A DNA stretch of 21,123 nt from a virus: IMG/VR virus record IMGVR_UViG_3300017987_000419, positions 1 through 21,123 of that record; one strand, 5' to 3'. The number at the start of each line of letters is the position of its first letter. Position 1 is the first letter of the stretch. The position numbers and the translations under genes are program-made. Positions 3,629 to 20,456 of the stretch are shown one piece after another. Below the pieces are notes generated by a model. It did no database searches. It saw only the letters and a list, made by a program, of their open reading frames with translations, and was not told the DNA's origin.

Positions 3629-3892
3629 CTACCTCGTTATAAAATAAAATTCATTGCAAATCATACAAACCGCCACATATTTAAAAATCAAAAACTTCTC
3701 CCCCTCATGACAGGCCGGGCAATACCTGAGCTTAAAAGCGTTAAACAATGGCTCTGTAATTTCCAACGGCCGCCCGGCTCGCTTAACCATTGAAGAACCC
3801 TTGATAAGCCGCGGGATAATTTGCTTTCCCGCGGCCATGTGTTTTAAGCTTCTTTCTTCCTCAGTTATTAACGCTCTTATCTCATCCATCAT
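3629..3892 (-). CDS. Small zinc-ribbon protein between tail tube and chaperone genes
   Basis: The 87-residue product starts at an ATG that overlaps the tube-gene stop as ATGA. Near the C-terminus are two cysteine pairs, YCPAC and VCMIC, about 17 residues apart, forming a probable four-cysteine zinc ribbon. The N-terminal half is basic and helical, with RSLKHMAAGKQIIPRLIKG. I do not recognise the family. It lies where many siphoviruses place nothing or a chaperone, so it might be an assembly factor or a small regulator carried in the late operon. Zinc binding is inferred from the cysteine spacing. Confidence 0.75.
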   Translation of the reverse strand: MMDEIRALITEEERSLKHMAAGKQIIPRLIKGSSMVKRAGRPLEITEPLFNAFKLRYCPACHEGEKFLIFKYVAVCMICNEFYFITR

Positions 3893-5027
3893 TCAGGTGT
3901 CGTATTGCTGAAAATTCCTATTCTATTTTCTGTACTATCGTACATAACCTGAACATTAACATTAAATTCACCATAATTTTTTTCGGGAAACGGAAAGCTC
4001 ATTCCCGCTGGCTTGACTCTATACAGCAACATATTGTAAAGAGTGCCCGCGTTAGTCTCCGAAAATATTGTCATTCCATACTCCTGAAAATCCATAGGTT
4101 GCTCGCCTATAATGGCGCTATAGCTACCACCATGCGGCTTTTGTACATAAAATTTCGCCGTATCATCGGTGGTCATGGCTATTGCTGATGAACTGCCGCC
4201 GGTAAGGGTAAGTCCAAAATTATCTACATCAACCGTTGCCCCCGAGGCCGGCACAGTAATCGGAGACGCCGTAATTTTGCCGTCATCATCCTCATACGCC
4301 TCATCTGTTCCCCTTGCGAAATTTGAACTGCTCATAGCATAAATGTCTACTGTTGCTGCCGCTGTAGCCTTAATTACATACCACCCTTCTTTCAGTTCAT
4401 CCTTTCCAGTGCTTGCCTTAACTGTAATGGTTGCTATCCCTTCAGCTGCATCAATTACAGACGTTCCATTTACGTTATCCTCATCTATAACATCCCCATC
4501 CGTGTCAGCTGCATATTCCGTAACATTACCAGCTACATTAGTAGCTATAATGTCACCTGTCATTTCTCTTGCTACTATTGATACCGTTGGCTCAAAAGAA
4601 CTTATCGCTGAATCCCAGACAAAAAGGTTTGACCCACCTTTAAGCTGAGCAAATTCTGCGGGCATTTCAATCATAACATCCCCGAGTACTCGGTAATATG
4701 CTTGACTGAGCCATGTAGTTCTACTAAAAACATTTATATTCGCTATTGGTCGTCAATCAATAACCGCTTTCGCTGCTTGTAGTCCCCTACAAGATTAGAC
4801 TATATCACCAACCTTTACAGGTTGCCCGGCGCTTCCACTACCGACTTGTAGTGTACTCCCTTTCGGGATAGTCGTTGCACCTTCCTCAATTGAGGCTTGG
4901 CTCAGGATTGTCTGGTCTAGAGTTCCCCTGAGTTCACCGGGTTTGCAACATGCGTTACCACATGAGGCGGCAATTTTTACCGTATATCATGTATCCCAAA
5001 AATGGATCGCTTTTGGCTTTCGCTCAT
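3889..5027 (-). CDS. Major tail (tube) protein, split gene interrupted by a group I intron
   Basis: Exon 1 is 4979-5027 and exon 2 is 3889-4730 (minus strand, join 5027-4979 then 4730-3889). Exon 1 opens with an ATG seven bases after a perfect AGGAGG (5035-5040) and encodes MSESQKRSIFGIHDIR plus one base. Removing 4731-4978 restores the frame: the split codon T|TT gives F17, then F-S-R-T-T-W-L and on to R-V-L-G-D-V-M. The joined protein is 296 residues. The spliced start (S-I-F-G-I-H, then S-R-T-T about three residues later, then V-L-G) fits the pattern I remember for siphovirus tail tube proteins. The C-terminus, with PFPEKNYGEFNVNV, is also tube-like. The ATG at 4674 lies inside exon 2 (residue 36) and is not the true start. 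It lies between the tail terminator and chaperone genes, as expected of a tube gene. Confidence 0.88.
4731..4978 (-). ncRNA. Group I self-splicing intron (IA-like, no ORF)
   Basis: Read on the minus strand, the conserved core is plain. P4 is CTCAGG (4927-4932) with CCTGAG (4901-4906), the latter inside the Q-type phrase AATCCTGAGCCAAG. P7 is GACTAT (4868-4873, in R-type GTGCAACGACTAT) with ATAGTC (4798-4803, in S-type GATATAGTC). P3 is CCCGG (4937-4941) with CCGGG (4825-4829). P6 is CCTC-AATT-GAGG. P7.1 is CCC-GAAA-GGG, P7.2 is CACTAC/GTAGTG, P8 is CAACC/GGTTG and P9 is CTTGTAG (4787-4793) with CTACAAG (4776-4782). P1 pairs exon CGGU (4979-4982) with intron GCCG (4968-4971), placing the required U.G at the 5' splice site. 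The intron ends in G (4731). Extra P7.1/P7.2 stems point to subgroup IA. At 248 nt it is small and encodes no endonuclease. Confidence 0.93.
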
Positions 5028-5040
5028 TTACTTGCCTCCT

Positions 5041-7457: not shown

Positions 7458-7659
7458 TTTCTATTTCTTTTTCTGCCTCAAAAAATGATTTCTTCTTTTT
7501 CTTATCAGTCTTTTTAATAAAATTATCAATCACACCCTTGCAATCGCAACTATAGTATTTCCCTTTCTTGACGAGATTATAATCTCTTACCATTTGCGAT
7601 ATTGAAGTACCTTCAAATCTTTTTTTACATCGATAACATTTAATAACGTATTTTTTCAC
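7444..7659 (-). CDS. Small CxxC/CxC zinc-binding protein
   Basis: The 71-residue product starts MKKYVIKCYRCKKRFEG and has CDC near residue 39, so C-x2-C plus C-x-C could bind one zinc. The C-terminus is strongly basic (IKKTDKKKKKSFFEAEKE). The start shares ATGA with the stop of the upstream Ig-like gene, and the end overlaps the minor head gene by 14 bases. I do not recognise a family; nucleic-acid or protein binding is a guess from the composition. Confidence 0.7.
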   Translation of the reverse strand: MKKYVIKCYRCKKRFEGTSISQMVRDYNLVKKGKYYSCDCKGVIDNFIKKTDKKKKKSFFEAEKEIENADI

Positions 7660-8012
7660 AATATACTCTCCTTTATTATTAATGGCGATTCATACCTAAT
7701 TACGTCAGTATCTACGGTAATTATTGCCTGAATTTCTGATATATATTTACCAGGAGGCAGCAACGTTGATGTATTCTCGCTCGCCGGTATGTTTACCAAC
7801 ACTACCCCATTCGCCCCACCTGTTTTATCAAAATTTCCGTCGGTTTTCTCAATTAAATAAGTATCATCCGTCAATTTAGCTTTAGCCTTGAATGTAAATA
7901 TTGCACTAGATACATCCAATAGCTCTAATTTGCCTGTAGTCTGATTGCGCCGCCTAAATGTCCATTGTATCCATCGGCCCTCACCGTTGCGCAATTCTAT
8001 TTCATTTGACAT
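7656..8012 (-). CDS. Ig-like / BppU-type beta-sandwich virion protein
   Basis: The 118-residue product looks like an all-beta sandwich. It contains IELRNGEGRWIQWTFRRR, then DVSSAIFTFKAKAKLTDD, then GVVLVNIPASENTSTLLPPGKYISEIQA. This order (S-x-x-x-x-F-x-x-K, then G-x-V-x-V, then L-x-P-G-x-Y) is like that of BppU/DUF2479-type N-terminal domains and other phage surface Ig folds. The start overlaps the upstream micro-gene by 11 bases. It is probably a virion surface or baseplate-type module, but there is no clear function. Confidence 0.68.
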   Translation of the reverse strand: MSNEIELRNGEGRWIQWTFRRRNQTTGKLELLDVSSAIFTFKAKAKLTDDTYLIEKTDGNFDKTGGANGVVLVNIPASENTSTLLPPGKYISEIQAIITVDTDVIRYESPLIIKESIL

Positions 8013-8157
8013 AACACTTAACCTCTATAACAATTTCTGTATCATCAATAATTACATCAGGTTCATTATCCTCAATCTCTATATCAGCACCGTACAATAT
8101 GACATCACATGATCCATTCATACTAATTATGCCCTTTGTCGCTAATCCCAGGCTCAT
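8002..8157 (-). CDS. Small acidic protein of unknown function
   Basis: A 51-residue frame runs from an ATG at 8157, which overlaps the previous stop as ATGA, to a TGA at 8002. It opens MSLGLATKGIISMNGSCDVI and continues into an alternating, acidic beta-like part (DIEIEDNEPDVIIDDTEIVIEV). Overlaps at both ends (4 and 11 bases) and open frame support it as a real gene. Similar short G-L-x-x-x-G-I starts occur in small structural genes of phages, but I cannot assign a family. Confidence 0.65.
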   Translation of the reverse strand: MSLGLATKGIISMNGSCDVILYGADIEIEDNEPDVIIDDTEIVIEVKCYVK

Positions 8158-8741
8158 TGTTTAACAACCTTGTATGTTTGCAATTCGTCATTATTCCATA
8201 TCGCAGTAATTGTATATGTTGCCAGAACATCATTAGCAGTCCCAACACTACCAGCCGCACTATATATTCTCAATCTTCCACTCGTTAATAATTTAGCACC
8301 GCTATATGTATCATAGCTGGTGTTATCCAAATAATAATTTTCTTGCGCCAATCCCAACGATCTGGTTAACGTATTAACTATATCTGTTAGTGCGCCAGAA
8401 TCAGGCAAATTATCTGTCACAATTTTAATCGCAGCCGTATCAGTTTTAATATCATCCAAATCATTAGTCTCACAAAATAACGTCTCACCCAAAACCCTGT
8501 CGTCAGGACATGTTATCTCTAAATCGTATGTGCCGAGCGATAGCGGCGTAAATGAGGCATAATAATATCCTGTTGATCCTATTTCTGCTATCGTTACGAC
8601 CTCTGGCGCATTAGCATTATTTAACGTCAAATTATATGTGCATGATCCAGCCTGACCAGTTAATGGAGTGATCCCGTCTGTACCAAATACCGTAAATGGT
8701 ATATATACAAGCTCATTTTGTTTTGTTTTCCGGCTGCCCAT
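8154..8741 (-). CDS. Probable beta-rich virion surface protein
   Basis: The open frame begins with GTG at 8750, but AGGTGA lies just before an ATG at 8741, which is the better start and gives 195 residues. The N-terminal half (NELVYIPFTVFGTDGITPLTG, then STGYYYASFTPLSLGTYDLE) is like an Ig-type domain seen in phage proteins that present a linear, beta-rich surface. A linker DIKTDTAAIKIVTDNLPDSG follows. The C-terminal part has L-D-N-T-S-Y-D and a final strand TYTITAIWNNDELQTYKVVK. Such D-I-K-T-D-T linkers recur in phage structural proteins of this kind. The start region overlaps the coiled-coil gene. Role inferred from context. Confidence 0.68.
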   Translation of the reverse strand: MGSRKTKQNELVYIPFTVFGTDGITPLTGQAGSCTYNLTLNNANAPEVVTIAEIGSTGYYYASFTPLSLGTYDLEITCPDDRVLGETLFCETNDLDDIKTDTAAIKIVTDNLPDSGALTDIVNTLTRSLGLAQENYYLDNTSYDTYSGAKLLTSGRLRIYSAAGSVGTANDVLATYTITAIWNNDELQTYKVVKQ

Positions 8742-8907
8742 CCATCTCACCTATTAACTCTAGTTGTCCCTGTATTCTCAATCCTTCGATATTTAGCAAT
8801 TGCAACTGCTTGTCAATCTGATTTCTTTGTTGAGTCAACATATTGATTTCTTGCTCAATTTCTTTTATTCTATTTTCACGGGTTATTCTTTTTTCTTCAA
8901 AATCCAT
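8713..8907 (-). CDS. Small coiled-coil protein
   Basis: The 64-residue product is nearly one helix, with a heptad-like pattern from EKRITRENRIKEIEQEINML to IDKQLQLLNIEGLRIQGQL. Overlaps at both ends (11 bases upstream, 29 downstream) make it part of the translationally coupled run. No known family. It may be a trimer-forming or scaffold helix accompanying the neighbouring surface proteins. Confidence 0.65.
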   Translation of the reverse strand: MDFEEKRITRENRIKEIEQEINMLTQQRNQIDKQLQLLNIEGLRIQGQLELIGEMDGQPENKTK

Positions 8908-9211
8908 TTAAAACCTCAATCTGATTATTAAGTCTTACTATTTTGTCCTGGCTCTTTTTTATCTTTTTCTCTTCTTTATCAATTTGATCCATTACTATTT
9001 TAATCTTTTTTTCTGAGTTCTTTTCTATTTCTTCACCAATTAAATGGATTATGTGGTTTTCCCATATCCATTCATTTTTAAGCGGCTCATAATACCAGCC
9101 GTGCGGAGAGGCATTCAAAAGAATTTTCACAAAATCTTCTGCCTCATCCAGTGAATCAAAAAAATCATTCTGAATGTCTTGTCCGCCTATTGTTAACTTG
9201 ACTTCTATCAT
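8897..9211 (-). CDS. Hypothetical protein with C-terminal coiled coil
   Basis: The 104-residue product has an N-terminal alpha/beta part (MIEVKLTIGGQDIQNDFFDS, then DEAEDFVKILL, then HGWYYEPLKNEWIWENH) and a C-terminal lysine/glutamate-rich coiled coil (KIVMDQIDKEEKKIKKSQDK). Start shares ATGA with the stop of the upstream gene. No family is recognised. Its coiled coil resembles that of the next gene, so the two may pair. Confidence 0.62.
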   Translation of the reverse strand: MIEVKLTIGGQDIQNDFFDSLDEAEDFVKILLNASPHGWYYEPLKNEWIWENHIIHLIGEEIEKNSEKKIKIVMDQIDKEEKKIKKSQDKIVRLNNQIEVLNGF

Positions 9212-9438
9212 GGTATAATCCCTAAAAATATTACCCTCAATTCATCATCCGTCGGGTGGTCACCGTACCACGTACCCAGCCCAACATTAGGGTTGTACGT
9301 CCATATTATTGGAGAACCATAAAACTCTCCGTATGCAATCAACCCTAGTGCGTAATCTCTTGCCGCCTGTTCTGTCGGAAAGGCCGGATTTGAAAACGGC
9401 CCACCATCGAGTGTTATTATTAAGTGATAATAATTCAT
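9208..9438 (-). CDS. Hypothetical small protein downstream of fibre-like gene
   Basis: The 76-residue product reads MNYYHLIITLDGGPFSNPAF and then EQAARDYALGLIAYGEFYGS, with W/Y-rich C-terminus (WTYNPNVGLGTWYGDHP). The first part of the pattern (strand, then aromatic-rich loop, helix EQAARDYAL) resembles the N-terminal half of the following gene, so both may share a small alpha/beta fold. It starts 3 bases after the fibre-like gene. A fibre chaperone or decoration role is possible but not shown. Confidence 0.6.
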   Translation of the reverse strand: MNYYHLIITLDGGPFSNPAFPTEQAARDYALGLIAYGEFYGSPIIWTYNPNVGLGTWYGDHPTDDELRVIFLGIIP

Positions 9439-9441
9439 TCA

Positions 9442-10575
9442 TCACGTCCATGCCGGTATGTAATAAACGGTACCTGTATTATCCTTAACAGTCAACCATC
9501 GCGATATAGTAGCTGTCCCAACTCCGGCAGGTGCCACATTGGTAATAGTCACAGTTTGCGCACCATTATTTGTCCAATTATTAGGACTTGTCAATTTAAC
9601 CGTTCCAGAACCCTGAAGAGAGCTATTTACCACCAAATCGGTCCCATCATAAGAGATACCTGCATCTTGACCAGTTCCCCAAATTACACTCTTATCATCA
9701 GTCGCCACTTGGATATCTGCTTTGTGATAGAGTACAGCGTTTACAGAGTCACTCCAGATAGACCACACATTAGTACCATGATCAATATTTTCAAGTTTCA
9801 ATCCGTATTCATTTACTATACTTGATCCACCATGCAAAGTCAGTCCACCCGCGATATCAGAATTGGCGAGAAAATGCATATAATTAGTACATACCACGCC
9901 GCCCCTCAACTCCTCAGTGCCCAAAAAGACTTTAAGTGCAAAAATCCCATTGGTCTGAAATCCTATCATTCTGCCCATTGTTAGAGCTGACCCATTGTAT
10001 TTGTCAGTTGATGTCCCTGCATTAAACGCCGATACTTCCGTGGGAGGCACCCCTACGCCTGAATGGTCAACACGGTACTTCGGACCACCAAGAAAAGAAC
10101 TCAGTGAAAAATTAGCATGTGCCCCTGGTGCTGATGTCTCAGCCCACGTTGACGCATCCTGAAATACGGCAGACCCTCCAAAAGTCTGAGCTGTATTATA
10201 TTGAATTATATTAGTATAAGTAAACCCGCCAAATAGTACAAAAGCCGATCCTGTACAATCTGATGTTTCGTTTGACTTCATAATTGCTCCCTGGGTAGCT
10301 GATGCGCCAGCCGACATGTCATCAAACCCGAGAAAAGTAATCCCTCCATAAACGAGACATCTACCATCAGTCGCGCCTGCCTGTACGGGTGGGGCTACTG
10401 TGTTTGGTCTAAGTTCCAGATTATCACTAATAGAATCGCCACCATAAATCACCGGGCAATTATTCAAGTTATTATCACCCATGTCTAAATCATTTGTTAA
10501 AGGATCATTTGTACAATCTAATTTCAGATAACGTCCATCGGCAATGGCCTGTGATATTGAATTGCGCACATCCAT
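9442..10575 (-). CDS. Fibre- or tailspike-like protein
   Basis: The 377-residue product has ISQAIADGRYLKLDCTNDPL near the N-terminus. The A-D-x-R-Y-L-K-L-D phrase is a recurrent signature of phage fibre repeats, followed by L-T-x-D-L-D-M-G-D-N-x-L-N. The middle is rich in glycine, serine and asparagine with beta pattern. The C-terminus (VTITNVAPAGVGTATISRWL, then GTVYYIPAWT) ends in a short strand common to phage fibre and capsid-fibre proteins. The ATG at 10575 has AGGAGG about 13 bases upstream; a nearer ATG is in another frame. It could be a head fibre, since it lies among head genes, or a displaced tail fibre. Confidence 0.75.
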   Translation of the reverse strand: MDVRNSISQAIADGRYLKLDCTNDPLTNDLDMGDNNLNNCPVIYGGDSISDNLELRPNTVAPPVQAGATDGRCLVYGGITFLGFDDMSAGASATQGAIMKSNETSDCTGSAFVLFGGFTYTNIIQYNTAQTFGGSAVFQDASTWAETSAPGAHANFSLSSFLGGPKYRVDHSGVGVPPTEVSAFNAGTSTDKYNGSALTMGRMIGFQTNGIFALKVFLGTEELRGGVVCTNYMHFLANSDIAGGLTLHGGSSIVNEYGLKLENIDHGTNVWSIWSDSVNAVLYHKADIQVATDDKSVIWGTGQDAGISYDGTDLVVNSSLQGSGTVKLTSPNNWTNNGAQTVTITNVAPAGVGTATISRWLTVKDNTGTVYYIPAWT

Positions 10576-10592
10576 TAGTATTCATTGCCCTC

Positions 10593-11129
10593 CTAGTATT
10601 CATAATAAAATAAACTTATGGTCACATTATTCCCGCCTGTGCTATCAGCTACTTTTGCACGCACTCTACTATTGGCGGGTATTTCGCATGATTGAATTGG
10701 GACATTCATGGTCCCGTCCTGAACTGCATTTTTAACAAATCTCACTCGACCGCATTCGATATCAGTAGCACCGTAATACAAAACTAATTCATAAACTGCG
10801 TTCGCGCTTATATTTTCGACACTAACATTATGAATATCGAAAATATGTGTTATAGCGTTTGCTGCGACAATATCATTAGAAAAATTTCCCAGTGTCCACG
10901 CCGCTCCATCAGAGGTAACAGTTATACCTGTAGCCAATGAGGGAATAACTTTACTGGACGTGTTGTGATGTTCTTTTATTGTTACAACAAGAGAATATAT
11001 ACTATCTCCGTCGTGCGTATCCGTTTTATTTCCAATCACATCTGACATAATAACATTATCAGCACTATCAGCACTCGGCACATTATGATACGTCTCCATA
11101 TTATTACGGCCTGGATTTATAATTGACAT
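10593..11129 (-). CDS. Conserved-looking beta-rich virion protein
   Basis: The 178-residue product contains SADSADNVIMSDVIGNKTD, then HDGDSIYSLV, then a TVTSDGAAWTLGNF segment and a C-terminal half of strands ending ANSRVRAKVADSTG and VTISLFYYEY. I recall similar D-V-I-G-N-K-T-D-T-x-x-G architecture in hypothetical structural proteins of environmental phages, but cannot name the family. The ATG directly follows the previous TAA, with GGAGG just inside the upstream gene. All-beta content and location suggest a capsid decoration or fibre-foot protein. Confidence 0.68.
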   Translation of the reverse strand: MSIINPGRNNMETYHNVPSADSADNVIMSDVIGNKTDTHDGDSIYSLVVTIKEHHNTSSKVIPSLATGITVTSDGAAWTLGNFSNDIVAANAITHIFDIHNVSVENISANAVYELVLYYGATDIECGRVRFVKNAVQDGTMNVPIQSCEIPANSRVRAKVADSTGGNNVTISLFYYEY

Positions 11130-11480
11130 TTAATCCTCCAAGATGTCCAGTACTGCTATTACTGTGCTATTTGCCGCCGTTATGCCCTTAATAGCACCTT
11201 TCCATGTATCAAGAGTTATTGACGCCCCTAAACCATCCCTTGCCGCTGTGCCATCGCTCAATACAAAATTATATGCGGCCGTACTGGGATCACCTCCCAA
11301 TCGAATTATGCAAGGCTCTGTTCCACAATTTTGCAGTGTGATAGATTTCCTTGTAGCTGAAGCCGCTGCAATTTCAATACCCCCTACGGTTGTATTTACC
11401 GTAACCGGTGCGGCCGTTGGCGCCTTATCAGTACCCCCGAACTGGTCCTCTAATATATCGGTTGTTCTTGCTTCGCTCAT
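11130..11480 (-). CDS. Probable capsid decoration-type beta-sandwich protein
   Basis: The 116-residue product is a strand-rich single domain: GIEIAAASATRKSITLQNCG, then EPCIIRLGGDPSTAAYNFVL, then ASITLDTWKGAIKGITAANS. The pattern of an R-K-S-I-T-L-Q-N phrase followed by L-x-L-x-x-G is like small beta-sandwich proteins that coat phage surfaces. It starts with an ATGA overlap. Function is inferred. Confidence 0.68.
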   Translation of the reverse strand: MSEARTTDILEDQFGGTDKAPTAAPVTVNTTVGGIEIAAASATRKSITLQNCGTEPCIIRLGGDPSTAAYNFVLSDGTAARDGLGASITLDTWKGAIKGITAANSTVIAVLDILED

Positions 11481-11758
11481 TTTTCCCCCTGATCAGCCTC
11501 AACCTGTGATTTCAGCGTTGGGCTTTTTGCTCTTTGTTCTTTGACTTTATCGCTGTCTGATTTCCTTAATTTTTCAATTGCCCTTTGAAAATCAGTTTCA
11601 TATCCTAATTCTTTTAATAATTTGATTTCTTTCTCGTCGCTTGTCTCGTATGCTCCTGGAATAGTGTACCCATTACCATCAAAATTGGTACCACCAAACG
11701 AGCAGAGTATTTTTTTCATTTCCTTATTCCAGACCTGGCCAATTCCATAAAATTTCAT
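11477..11758 (-). CDS. Small protein of head region (VW-N-KE type)
   Basis: The 93-residue product opens MKFYGIGQVWNKEMKKILCS and then FGGTNFDGNGYTIPGAYETSDE, ending in a charged helix with LLKELGYETDF. The order V-W-x-x-E-x-x-x-x-L-C, T-x-D/E, and L-x-E-L-G-Y is typical of small proteins found just after major capsid genes in many phages, whose role is not clear. SD AGGTGA sits close before the ATG. It lies downstream of the terminator at 11.88 kb. Confidence 0.68.
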   Translation of the reverse strand: MKFYGIGQVWNKEMKKILCSFGGTNFDGNGYTIPGAYETSDEKEIKLLKELGYETDFQRAIEKLRKSDSDKVKEQRAKSPTLKSQVEADQGEK

Positions 11759-11761
11759 AAA

Positions 11762-11866
11762 TCACCTCACTTTAAATATCTTGTCTCTGCATTTTTTACA
11801 AAAATATAAATCGTTATGCTTCAATAAATCATAAAATATGTTACATCTAATACACATCACTTTCAT
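11762..11866 (-). CDS. 34-residue four-cysteine micro-protein
   Basis: The frame encodes MKVMCIRCNIFYDLLKHNDL and then YFCKKCRDKIFKVR. CIRC and CKKC pairs 18 residues apart form a minimal zinc ribbon. The start is uncertain: neither ATG at 11866 nor the internal one at codon 4 has a strong ribosome binding site. It lies just after the terminator and 3 bases before the next gene. Its sequence integrity supports coding, but it may be poorly expressed. Confidence 0.55.
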   Translation of the reverse strand: MKVMCIRCNIFYDLLKHNDLYFCKKCRDKIFKVR

Positions 11867-11878
11867 AATAAAACATAA

Positions 11879-11898
11879 TGGGGGACAAGAGCCCCCCA
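11879..11898 (-). terminator. Rho-independent-type terminator after major capsid / beta-helix cluster
   Basis: On the minus strand TGGGGG (11893-11898) pairs perfectly with CCCCCA (11879-11884) around an 8-base loop. The stem is followed by a T-rich but not pure run, ATTATGTTTTATTAT. It lies 6 bases after the stop of the small acidic gene. It would give partial termination below the highly expressed capsid gene, tuning expression of the downstream surface block. Confidence 0.65.
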
Positions 11899-11904
11899 GC
11901 TAGT

Positions 11905-12018
11905 TTATTCTTTATTCTTCAATTGTTCCTGAAGCTCATCACGCTCCTTATAAAAGAGTGCCTCAGCTTCAGACATTTTTTTCTCTTCTTTTACTTCTTC
12001 TTTTTTCTCTTCTTTCAT
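11905..12018 (-). CDS. 37-residue charged helical micro-protein
   Basis: The frame starts at an ATG overlapping the previous stop as ATGA and ends with TAA at 11905. It encodes MKEEKKEEVKEEKKMSEAEA followed by a helix LFYKERDELQEQLKNKE. It is strongly charged, a probable single helix or coiled coil. It is the last gene before the terminator. No known family; coding is supported by the overlap and placement. Confidence 0.6.
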   Translation of the reverse strand: MKEEKKEEVKEEKKMSEAEALFYKERDELQEQLKNKE

Positions 12019-12269
12019 TCTATCACCTCGTAATGTTTCCAGCCTATTGCTGTATAACTGCCAATCTCTGAATATGAAATAGAATCTAATATAAATTCAA
12101 GTCTACCCTCTGTAACGTTATAACTAGGCTCTTCAAATTTATAAATCTCTCCATATTCATCATTGATATAAGACTTATCCGGGAGAACATACGGGATGTC
12201 AAAATCCCTATAAATATATTCCCCCGGTCTGTCTGATATTTCCCTTATATACCAAATCTTAGCAATCAT
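12015..12269 (-). CDS. Hypothetical protein, 84 residues
   Basis: The product has aromatic-rich, strand-like sequence: MIAKIWYIREISDRPGEYIY, then a DIPYVLPDKSYIN segment and TEGRLEFILDSISYSEIGSY. The ATG overlaps the beta-helix gene stop as TAATG. I do not recognise a family. It is presumably a small partner of the beta-helix protein or a decoration factor, judged by coupling only. Confidence 0.62.
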   Translation of the reverse strand: MIAKIWYIREISDRPGEYIYRDFDIPYVLPDKSYINDEYGEIYKFEEPSYNVTEGRLEFILDSISYSEIGSYTAIGWKHYEVIE

Positions 12270-13159
12270 TAGCTGGCCGTATGATTATCGGCTGCGCCAG
12301 TTCCATCGTCAGTAACTGCCGTACCCGCTTGTATCCAGTTATCGGATATAAGCACATAAGCTCCAGCCGCATCCTGATGTATGCCTGTCGTACAAGTGCC
12401 GACAATTTTATTCTGATGTATAAAACTCCCAAGAGCAGCGGTGGCTACCGCATTAGCATGAACCATTATTCCGGTAGTACCATCACCTGAGACTTTACAA
12501 TTTTTTATCTCTGATGTACAGAAATACGTATCACCACCATCGCCCTGTCCAACATGAATACCAGCCGTCTGGAAGTCATGCACGTGGCAACTATCAATTA
12601 CGGATTCTTTAACATTTGCTCCCCATATTCCAATGGTTGCGTTTGTGCCGTCACCTTTGAGAGTGACATTTTTAAGCAGGCACCCATCGAAAACAGACAA
12701 ATACAACGCCGGATAAGCGGTTGCCATATTGATCTGGATATTCTGTATTGAGCAACCGGCGCCACTAAAAGCCATCGCCGCCGGTGATCCACTGGAACCA
12801 TCGTAATTAACAACAACCCCATAATCAATATTTCCAATATCCTGGACGCCTATAAGGTGAACATTATAAGCACTCCATAATACTTGCTCGTTATACTGAC
12901 CCGGAGCAACATAAACATAAACTTGCCTGTCTTTGTCAGTATTTATGTTAGTCGTTCCTGCCGTATATCTGGCCTTATTAAGACCTTCCTGAATTGTTTT
13001 AAATGCTTTTTCCCATGTACTACCATCACCGCTTGAATTAACAGAACCGTCTACGTAATAAACGTTCCCATAAGGTTCAATTAAAGCTCTCAGCTCCACT
13101 ATTGCTTCTCTGGTAGCTGGGCGAACACCCGGATAAAGCTCTCTCCATTCAAAAGCCAT
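12269..13159 (-). CDS. Right-handed beta-helix (pectate-lyase fold) protein next to major capsid gene
   Basis: The 296-residue product starts after AGGAGGT. A short N-terminal anchor, MAFEWRELYPGVRPATREAI, is followed by VYYVDGSVNSSGDGSTWEKA and FKTIQEGLNKA, the DUF1565-like opening of right-handed beta-helix proteins. The rest has coil repeats of hydrophobic and N/G residues, including VHLIGVQDIGN, CSIQNIQINMA, CLLKNVTLKGD and ESVIDSCHVHD. No catalytic carbohydrate-active triad can be assigned. It directly follows the capsid gene (11-base gap), so a capsid spike, decoration or head-fibre role fits at least as well as a tailspike. The fold is clear; the role is inferred. Confidence 0.82.
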   Translation of the reverse strand: MAFEWRELYPGVRPATREAIVELRALIEPYGNVYYVDGSVNSSGDGSTWEKAFKTIQEGLNKARYTAGTTNINTDKDRQVYVYVAPGQYNEQVLWSAYNVHLIGVQDIGNIDYGVVVNYDGSSGSPAAMAFSGAGCSIQNIQINMATAYPALYLSVFDGCLLKNVTLKGDGTNATIGIWGANVKESVIDSCHVHDFQTAGIHVGQGDGGDTYFCTSEIKNCKVSGDGTTGIMVHANAVATAALGSFIHQNKIVGTCTTGIHQDAAGAYVLISDNWIQAGTAVTDDGTGAADNHTAS

Positions 13160-13170
13160 ATTGTACCTCC

Positions 13171-14112
13171 TTAACTCGTTGCCAGACTATGAATTTTCCC
13201 GTGAAGGAATTCAACTCCATAATCCAGACCGATTTTACCAAAAATTTGACCCTTTTCTGCAGCTCCGGCTTTCGCTAAATCCTCATAAAAGAAATTTCCT
13301 TTTCCTGGGACGGGTTGAAATACTGGCGCGCATGAAGACACATCTGCTATCAATATGTCGTCAGTAGGCATGAATCTATCATACACCACACCAAGAGTCG
13401 CAAAATCAGTCAATATTTGTTTTATCGCCACTCCGCCAACGTTCCTGTCTTCAGGCGCATAGCCATAAATATCAGATATTTTCTGAATTTGAAAAGCATT
13501 TGCAAATAGAACCATATTCATGAACTGGGCCCCGCCACCGGCCATGGTCCTGAGTGCCTCATCAATCATGTCTTTAGTCAAAGTTGCCGCAGATGCATTG
13601 ATTGACGTTGTGGTACACGCCGCAAGCATTCCCCGCGTCTGATTTGCTACACCTGCATTTATAGCAATTTGATACGTTCCATTTATAAATGAGTATTCAA
13701 TATCGCGTGCAATTTTTTTGAGATTATAGGCGATTTGAAAATTAACCTCATCAGTTACATTATTCACCTGTCCCTGTGTATTGATACCTGAAAGCCTGGC
13801 TTGATTAGCCAATTTTTCATAACTAATATCAATAGCCTGGTGGTGAATCTCACATACATTTTTATTTTGTGTTCTGACTGCCTCATTCCCATTTGGAGCC
13901 GTTAAACTCGCAGTCTCAGTTATTCCCGGCTGTGCTGCGGCTGGATAGTCATATTGACTTGAAATTGGGAACTCAAAATTACTTGATTGCTTGCCGCCGT
14001 TCATACCACCTATCATAGAAAAAAAAGGTGTGTTTTCAGCATCGGCAGTTATAAGCAAACCAGAATAATTTGGAAGGTCCCATATTGTGGCATTACCTGT
14101 TATCTGTGCCAT
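13171..14112 (-). CDS. Major capsid protein (SU10/DUF5309-type, HK97 fold)
   Basis: The 313-residue product opens MAQITGNATIWDLPNYSGLL and has ENTPFFSMIGGMNGGKQSSN, then the phrase YDYPAAAQPGITETASLTAP. The N-terminal D-x-P-N-Y-x-G-x-L, T-P-F-x-S-x-I-G-G and Q-P-x-I-T-E-T pattern matches SU10-type major capsid proteins (DUF5309). The central and C-terminal parts have MILF-like A-domain strands and the final PVPGKGNFFYED loop. It follows the scaffold gene by 10 bases and has a clear ribosome binding site (AGGAGA). It would form the icosahedral shell. Confidence 0.93.
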   Translation of the reverse strand: MAQITGNATIWDLPNYSGLLITADAENTPFFSMIGGMNGGKQSSNFEFPISSQYDYPAAAQPGITETASLTAPNGNEAVRTQNKNVCEIHHQAIDISYEKLANQARLSGINTQGQVNNVTDEVNFQIAYNLKKIARDIEYSFINGTYQIAINAGVANQTRGMLAACTTTSINASAATLTKDMIDEALRTMAGGGAQFMNMVLFANAFQIQKISDIYGYAPEDRNVGGVAIKQILTDFATLGVVYDRFMPTDDILIADVSSCAPVFQPVPGKGNFFYEDLAKAGAAEKGQIFGKIGLDYGVEFLHGKIHSLATS

Positions 14113-19740: not shown

Positions 19741-19953
19741 CTAATATTGACGCTTGATACTCCTGAGAATTATACCATGATCATGCTCGTAATTTTCTAA
19801 AAATTCCTTAATCGTAGTATCATGCATTTTTATTATTTTGTCTAGTTTTTGTTCGATTTTCCAACTTGCAATAATTATACAAAATATCGCAGTGAATATC
19901 AACAAAATAATTACGACCTGGTATCGGTTAGGCTGTACTTTGTAACTATCCAT
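19741..19953 (-). CDS. Single-pass membrane protein, 70 residues
   Basis: After a short polar start (MDSYKVQPNRYQ) comes a hydrophobic segment of about 20 residues (VVIILLIFTAIFCIIIASW), then an amphipathic helix with K/E/D (KIEQKLDKIIKMHDTTIKEF). SD GGAGG is 4 bases before the ATG, which overlaps the HNH gene by 8 bases. This N-in, one-pass layout with a following charged helix recalls spanin or anti-host membrane proteins, but it lacks a clear family match. Confidence 0.68.
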   Translation of the reverse strand: MDSYKVQPNRYQVVIILLIFTAIFCIIIASWKIEQKLDKIIKMHDTTIKEFLENYEHDHGIILRSIKRQY

Positions 19954-20203
19954 TTATCCTCCTGACTTTTATTCCTGATTTCGATCGTGGTTCTATTCCC
20001 AATATTTCACAAAATTCTTTTTCTGTTAATTTAGGTATTGATTTATTTAAATGACAATCATTGCAAAGATACATAATATTCATTGATAAATCCAGCAACA
20101 TCCCATACAGTTTTCTATTGCGCTTAGTTTGACTGAGCAAATGATGTTTATCTGTCGCTGGTTTACCGCATATCTCACAGGGCCGCAATATATTCACTGA
20201 CAT
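19946..20203 (-). CDS. HNH endonuclease-type protein
   Basis: The 85-residue product has CEICGKPATDKHHLL (C9, C12, H20, H21), N42 in the middle helix and CNDCH at 47-51, the C-x2-C...HH...N...C-x2-C-H layout of phage HNH proteins. SD GGGAGG touches the first ATG; the in-frame GTG at codon 3 (20197) has better spacing and could be the start. Overlaps the VRR-NUC gene by about 29 bases. It could help packaging with terminase or cut DNA for homing. It is far from the intron, so a direct tie is speculative. Confidence 0.78.
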   Translation of the reverse strand: MSVNILRPCEICGKPATDKHHLLSQTKRNRKLYGMLLDLSMNIMYLCNDCHLNKSIPKLTEKEFCEILGIEPRSKSGIKVRRING

Positions 20204-20456
20204 CCTCCCATTTTCTTGCTATAAAATAATGCCCAGCATGCTCTTTAATTTCACGTTCAAAAAGCTTTTGATTTTTGCTTTGCTTACCATTCTCAGTTTT
20301 TATTTCTATCCATAATACAATACCATTTTTAATAGCAGTCAAGTCAGACACTCCTTTATGAGATAAAGCTGACTGGTGATTTTTCCAGACATACCATCCC
20401 ATCCATTGGAGATAGTCTTTGATTGTTCTCTGGATGTCTGATTCTTTCTCTTTCAT
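20175..20456 (-). CDS. VRR-NUC-type nuclease
   Basis: The 93-residue product has MKEKESDIQRTIKDYLQWMG and then HKGVSDLTAIKNGIVLWIEI with K. This is the PD-(D/E)xK core of the small viral VRR-NUC proteins: D38, E51-x-K53 and a following Q in GKQSKNQ near 57-63, with a final helix EIKEHAGHYFIARKWEDVSE. Such proteins act in replication and repair, often Holliday-junction cleavage. ATG shares TAATG with the relic frame upstream. Confidence 0.85.
   Translation of the reverse strand: MKEKESDIQRTIKDYLQWMGWYVWKNHQSALSHKGVSDLTAIKNGIVLWIEIKTENGKQSKNQKLFEREIKEHAGHYFIARKWEDVSEYIAAL

Follow-up and report, generated by a model that had tools for sequence, protein, structure and literature searches.

An ORF-less group I intron in a probable tail-tube gene of a metagenomic phage

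Introns in phage virion genes

Group I introns in genes for virion proteins have been described before, and for the host gene considered here the nearest case is the tail-tube gene orf142 of phage Twort, which contains three of them (PMC11878797, PMC10136302). In the Twort record, the CDS named tail tube protein is in four pieces, and the Rfam model finds its three introns at 100.9, 97.4 and 63.6 bits. Likeness to the locus presented below extends to the type of intron, the absence of any CDS annotated inside the introns of orf142 (TmpA), and the tail-tube function of the gene. The differences are as clear: Twort is a large contractile-tail staphylococcal phage with three introns in one gene, whereas the gene described here has one, and the two phages are apparently unrelated, with no detectable similarity between their tube proteins.

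Other structural genes provide further parallels. Mycobacteriophages BAKA and Optimus (Cluster J) have a 265-bp endonuclease-free intron in a minor tail gene, LittleE has an intron in its capsid gene, and splicing of these mycobacteriophage introns has been demonstrated by RT-PCR (PMC3706429). The BAKA/Optimus intron resembles ours in being short, in lacking an endonuclease, in occupying a virion structural gene and in having been found through intron-less relatives; it is unlike ours in its minor tail host gene and its sequence, and no subgroup is given for it there. In phage C72C1, a group I intron (81.8 bits) lies between two parts of the major head protein gene, also structural, although in this case the host is a capsid gene and the core is only 61% identical to that of our intron. 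Three small reverse ORFs are annotated between those two parts of the C72C1 gene (L115:1153-2354).

Given the Twort, mycobacteriophage and C72C1 cases, neither the kind of intron nor its host gene nor its want of an ORF is without precedent. The earlier note on this DNA had supposed the tail-tube gene to be an unrecorded host for such an intron, a supposition that fails on the three in Twort orf142. What can be added is a further host lineage: besides Twort, a phage group with no apparent relationship to it has group I introns in what is probably its tail-tube gene, and with two lineages in hand a preference of introns for tail-tube genes becomes testable. The evidence comes from a 21,123-nucleotide stretch of viral DNA (the window) and from a related viral contig, L016.

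The interrupted gene

Read on the minus strand, the gene opens with an ATG at 5027 and runs for sixteen codons before the unspliced frame meets a TAA stop. With the 248 nt of 4978-4731 cut out, exons of 49 and 842 nt form a single frame of 296 residues. This is the frame proposed in the earlier note, and the strong ribosome binding site that it placed on the 49-nt first exon is indeed present as AGGAGG at 5040-5035. The unspliced frame terminates on the junction itself, in a U/AA whose U closes exon 1 and whose two As open the intron. The first ATG of the large downstream frame is at 4674, 57 nt into exon 2 (261 aa), and the listed ORF begins 35 residues too late in comparison with the joined frame. 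This is a clean example of a phage structural gene that ordinary annotation would truncate. The parts are as follows.

5035-5040, minus strand: Shine-Dalgarno sequence AGGAGG, 7 nt before the start codon, as likewise in L016
4979-5027, minus strand: exon 1, 49 nt, consisting of MSESQKRSIFGIHDIR and the first base of codon 17; the homologous start in L016 is at 13403
4731-4978, minus strand: ORF-less group I intron, 248 nt (RF00028 match, fold z-score, exact empty site in L016)
3889-4730, minus strand: exon 2, 842 nt, of the probable major tail-tube gene (joined frame, gene order)

The intron and its ribozyme core

When the window was scanned against 4227 Rfam families, RF00028 (Intron_gpI; cut-off 50 bits) matched 4989-4776 on the minus strand with 83.3 bits (E 3.4e-20), over the whole model (positions 1-253) and thus with the full core. 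Structure prediction agrees, the intron RNA folding more stably than its dinucleotide shuffles (z -3.9). Within the intron, neither strand has a stretch between stops of more than 60 codons, and no homing endonuclease was found in the open stretches of either strand. Window 4978-4731 is a complete ORF-less group I intron, a new example of an established kind. The earlier note had claimed as much from the letters alone; the covariance score and the want of any ORF beyond 60 codons bear it out, and its coordinates, 4731-4978, were exact.

All of the core helices that it had named (P3, P4, P6, P7, P7.1, P7.2, P8 and P9) can be placed, as can P2; the U.G pair in P1 (exon CGGU, intron GCCG) and the closing G are likewise as it described them, the latter being G4731, a position fixed by the empty site in L016.

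4979-4982, minus strand: P1, 5' strand CGGU, in the exon, its U being the last exon base (read directly, Rfam alignment)
4968-4971, minus strand: P1, 3' strand GCCG, the internal guide, which forms the U.G pair (read directly, Rfam)
4974-4978, minus strand: possible P10 strand AAAAA, the first five intron bases (bases read directly, pairing putative)
4726-4730, minus strand: possible P10 partner UUUUU, the first five bases of exon 2 (pairing putative)
4935-4941, minus strand: P3, 5' strand CCCGGUG (Rfam; covaries with its partner across 13 introns)
4825-4831, minus strand: P3, 3' strand (Rfam, covariation)
4901-4932, minus strand: P4-P5 region, with P4 at 4932-4926/4907-4901 and P5 at 4921-4919/4913-4911 (Rfam, covariation, fold)
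4879-4901, minus strand: P6 (4901-4899/4881-4879) and P6a (4895-4892/4887-4884) (Rfam, covariation)
4869-4873, minus strand: P7, 5' strand GACUA, of the guanosine-binding helix (identical in 13 of 13 aligned introns)
4798-4802, minus strand: P7, 3' strand UAGUC (identical in 13 of 13 aligned introns)
4836-4868, minus strand: P7.1 (4868-4865/4860-4857) and P7.2 (4853-4848/4841-4836) (read directly; P7.2 covaries)
4810-4823, minus strand: P8 (Rfam, covariation, fold)
4776-4793, minus strand: P9, CUUGUAG GGGA CUACAAG (Rfam, covariation)
4744-4773, minus strand: P9.1 (GC-GAAA-GC) and P9.2 (UAUUG...CAAUA) (read directly; counterparts in L016)
4731, minus strand: terminal guanosine, omega G (read directly; the L016 empty site agrees)

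An alignment of this intron with 12 other phage introns reveals compensatory change in P3, P4, P5, P6, P8 and P9, with 29 of the 41 predicted pairs keeping their pairing through changes on both sides. P7.1 and P7.2, located between P7 and P3, are marks of subgroup IA. Here they read CCC-GAAA-GGG and CACUAC...GUAGUG, respectively, and they place the intron in subgroup IA, at subgroup level only and undivided among IA1, IA2 and IA3.

A relative with an empty site

A capsid-based search of viral contigs yielded about 80 relatives, among which only L016 has tail genes in common with the window. Its capsid protein is 68% identical to the window's, and homology extends to its minor head, connector, neck and terminator-like genes. 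The terminator-like protein of L016 (12646-13392, plus strand) has 248 aa vs 156 aa in the window, and its extra ~95 residues match tail-fibre PHROGs, that is, a domain inserted in a small tail protein.

The homologue of the interrupted gene starts at L016 13403, with AGGAGG upstream, and its frame reads MAESTVRSIFGIHDVRFFNRSTW unbroken across the predicted junction; at the same stretch the joined window frame reads MSESQKRSIFGIHDIRFFSRTTW. L016 13433-13456 encodes GIHDVRFF, uninterrupted where the window has its junction, and the junction codons (CGG TTT TTC in L016, CGG T/TT TTT in the joined window) show no insertion or deletion. The uninterrupted codons of L016 align with the joined window frame and so locate the two splice sites to single-base precision. 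Alternative 3' ends for the intron would also leave the frame open, for example after G4743, but were rejected, since residues would be gained or lost relative to L016. An intron-less homologue with the same junction, on which the earlier note had let its reading depend, is thus found in L016.

Further relatives of the joined protein were sought widely. There were none by tblastn in 50,697 phage records or in a plasmid set, and none in genome contigs. Scans of viral contigs with the joined protein, the tape measure, a neighbour gene, an N-terminal alignment of two sequences and a pair of degenerate DNA patterns recovered nothing beyond L016, copies of this phage and chance matches.

The copies are two further IMG/VR contigs that carry the intron, with ~10 kb 100% identical to the window and zero mismatches. 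Being identical, they contribute no independent conservation; recurrence of the same 10 kb without a mismatch does indicate that the sequence is not an accident of assembly. That an assembly artefact or a frameshift region has been misread as an intron, a view which has nothing to recommend it beyond the metagenomic origin of the DNA, is of negligible probability given those two other metagenome contigs and a covariance match (E 3e-20) that cannot come from assembly error.

The ribozyme core, the junction and the empty site in a relative are direct observations, and on their strength the intron is real, with better support than a purely computational case usually has. A sharper question is whether it still works. 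Were it a degenerate relic that no longer splices, the tail protein would have to be made from the internal ATG at 4674 (261 aa), which does lie in frame shortly after the junction. The core helices are all intact, however, and the 83.3 bits of the match fall inside the 75.8-93.9 range of the other phage introns examined; the strong Shine-Dalgarno sequence precedes exon 1, not 4674; and the 35 residues lost with the internal start (SIFGIHDxRFF...) are among those best conserved with L016. We therefore regard a non-splicing relic as very improbable and an active intron as the preferred reading.

Identity of the host gene

The order of genes in the window runs from the capsid gene through connector, terminator-like gene, interrupted gene and three small genes to the tape measure. 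Annotated phages Mendokysei and G4 have a matching order, from which the window neighbours are named, by position only. Three genes serve as landmarks.

2907-916, minus strand: tape measure (PHROG)
14112-13171, minus strand: major capsid protein (Pfam SU10_MCP)
17755-16544, minus strand: large terminase (family match)

On this basis the interrupted gene is quite likely the tail tube, the best reading by position, gene order being what points to a tail-tube function for the 31-kDa, 296-residue product. Of the earlier assignment to the tail tube, the position ahead of the tape measure, shared with Mendokysei and G4, holds; a family match does not accompany it, with no tail-tube family match for the interrupted protein in PHROGs, Pfam or NCBIfam. 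A single-sequence structure model of exon 2 was too poor for use (mean pLDDT 36). This lack of a family match leaves some room for the gene to encode a different tail or neck protein while still hosting a group I intron. We consider that unlikely, as the interval from the terminator-like gene to the chaperone-like genes ahead of the tape measure encodes no other large protein and shows no sheath gene, and as none of the genes found just after the tape measure could be recognised as part of a contractile baseplate. The tail tube remains the favored identity.

Two other parts of the structural region deserve mention. Directly after the interrupted gene, window 3629-3892 (minus strand) encodes an 87-aa protein with two CxxC pairs, for which no confident family match was found. 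From the capsid to the minor head gene, window 7656-13159 (minus strand) holds a number of genes that look structural, one of them matching a beta-helix; this is an unusual location for fibre or decoration genes.

A second intron in the same gene

L016 has an intron of its own, elsewhere in the homologous gene.

L016 13547-13793, plus strand: ORF-less group I intron, 247 nt (RF00028, 60.5 bits, E 5.5e-15)

A whole-contig Rfam scan of L016 with fast filters missed this element. It sits after codon 48, 32 codons downstream of the window's site, at a point where the window is uninterrupted: excision gives RG/GSNLFLWDS, and the window, intron-free there, reads KGGSNLFVWDS. Its ends follow the same rules, with exon GGGGU facing the intron guide GCCCC, a U.G pair at the cut and a terminal G; the counterparts of P9.1 and P9.2 are GCC-GAAA-GGC and GGAUAAA...UUUAUCC. 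Once the two introns are taken out, the sequenced overlap has identities of 51/74 in protein and 140/223 in DNA. The two introns being reciprocal, each phage is the intron-less control for the other, and the empty sites fix the splice sites of both introns without recourse to RNA. Different intron sites in one structural gene of two related phages are the most interesting point to come from this locus.

Such an arrangement could reflect two gains or the movement of one element within the gene. The aligned cores of the window and L016 introns are 65.2% identical. For the L016 intron, helicase introns of Klebsiella phages come closer (about 70%), and a tree of 13 introns also puts it nearer to these than to the window intron, though with weak support (74-76). 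Since each intron is closer to introns of other genes, and the tree agrees, separate gain is the better reading, and we favor it for what the sequences suggest about history.

Proposed splicing

The group I intron very probably self-splices from late phage mRNA, yielding the probable tail-tube subunit. The late transcript would fold the ribozyme, with the guide GCCG pairing with the exon end CGGU; free guanosine bound in P7 would attack after the U of CGGU; and the released exon 1 would attack after G4731, P10 (AAAAA/UUUUU) perhaps holding it in place. Exon 1, with its sixteen codons and one base of codon 17, would thereby be joined to 842 nt, and translation of the message from the strong exon 1 start would give the 296-residue protein. 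Since the unspliced frame stops at the junction-spanning UAA, the full protein depends on splicing, and we infer that splicing takes place in cells. Ribosomes that halt at this UAA before splicing could stay out of the ribozyme core; the L016 intron too has a UAA in frame at its start.

It is tempting to see regulation here, the intron being kept for a splicing efficiency that, tied to exon 1 translation or to GTP, sets the timing or amount of tail tube. Exon 1 has only 16 codons with UAA on the splice site, such that a ribosome would stop beside P1, and the same gene in L016 has an intron that also starts with UAA. The dependence of splicing of one T4 intron on translation of its message (discussed in PMC11878797) can be counted on the same side. 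Against this, the L016 gene is open at the window's site, and its own intron lies elsewhere in the gene and is no closer to the window's (65.2%, vs 69.7% for that of pYD6-A) than are introns of unrelated genes. Because the site is intron-free in L016, the window intron is not needed for the gene. A retained regulator is accordingly improbable, and the control point for tail assembly that the earlier note envisioned has no support beyond the presence of the intron and is an idea that is not needed.

A broader version might also be entertained, in which ORF-less group I introns land preferentially in the tail-tube genes of unrelated phages and the junction UAA couples splicing to translation, timing or limiting tail-tube synthesis. 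Preference would draw on the three introns in Twort and the two at different sites in the window lineage; taken as a whole, the proposal strikes us as improbable.

Origin of the intron

The nearest other introns found belong to genes for DNA polymerase, helicase, terminase and capsid proteins, a spread over unrelated genes that is as expected of a mobile element. Closest in sequence is the DNA polymerase intron of the Pseudoalteromonas phage pYD6-A (69.7% over the aligned core), with that of the Acinetobacter phage KEN_02 at 66%; both differ from ours in having a replication gene as host, and that of pYD6-A contains an inserted ORF besides. Most likely the window intron is a mobile element or its relic rather than a dedicated regulator. 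Its origin was presumably selfish, and it may be tolerated because it removes itself from the message. The intron has no homing endonuclease, so present mobility is conjectural.

In Vibrio phage R16F (L119:83-970), two group I introns (93.9 and 90.6 bits) apparently divide the large terminase gene, which is annotated as three separate CDSs. In the window itself, a small HNH-like protein is encoded at 19946-20456 (minus strand) beside a gene for an Hjc/VRR-NUC-like nuclease; distant from the intron, it is possibly a free-standing nuclease.
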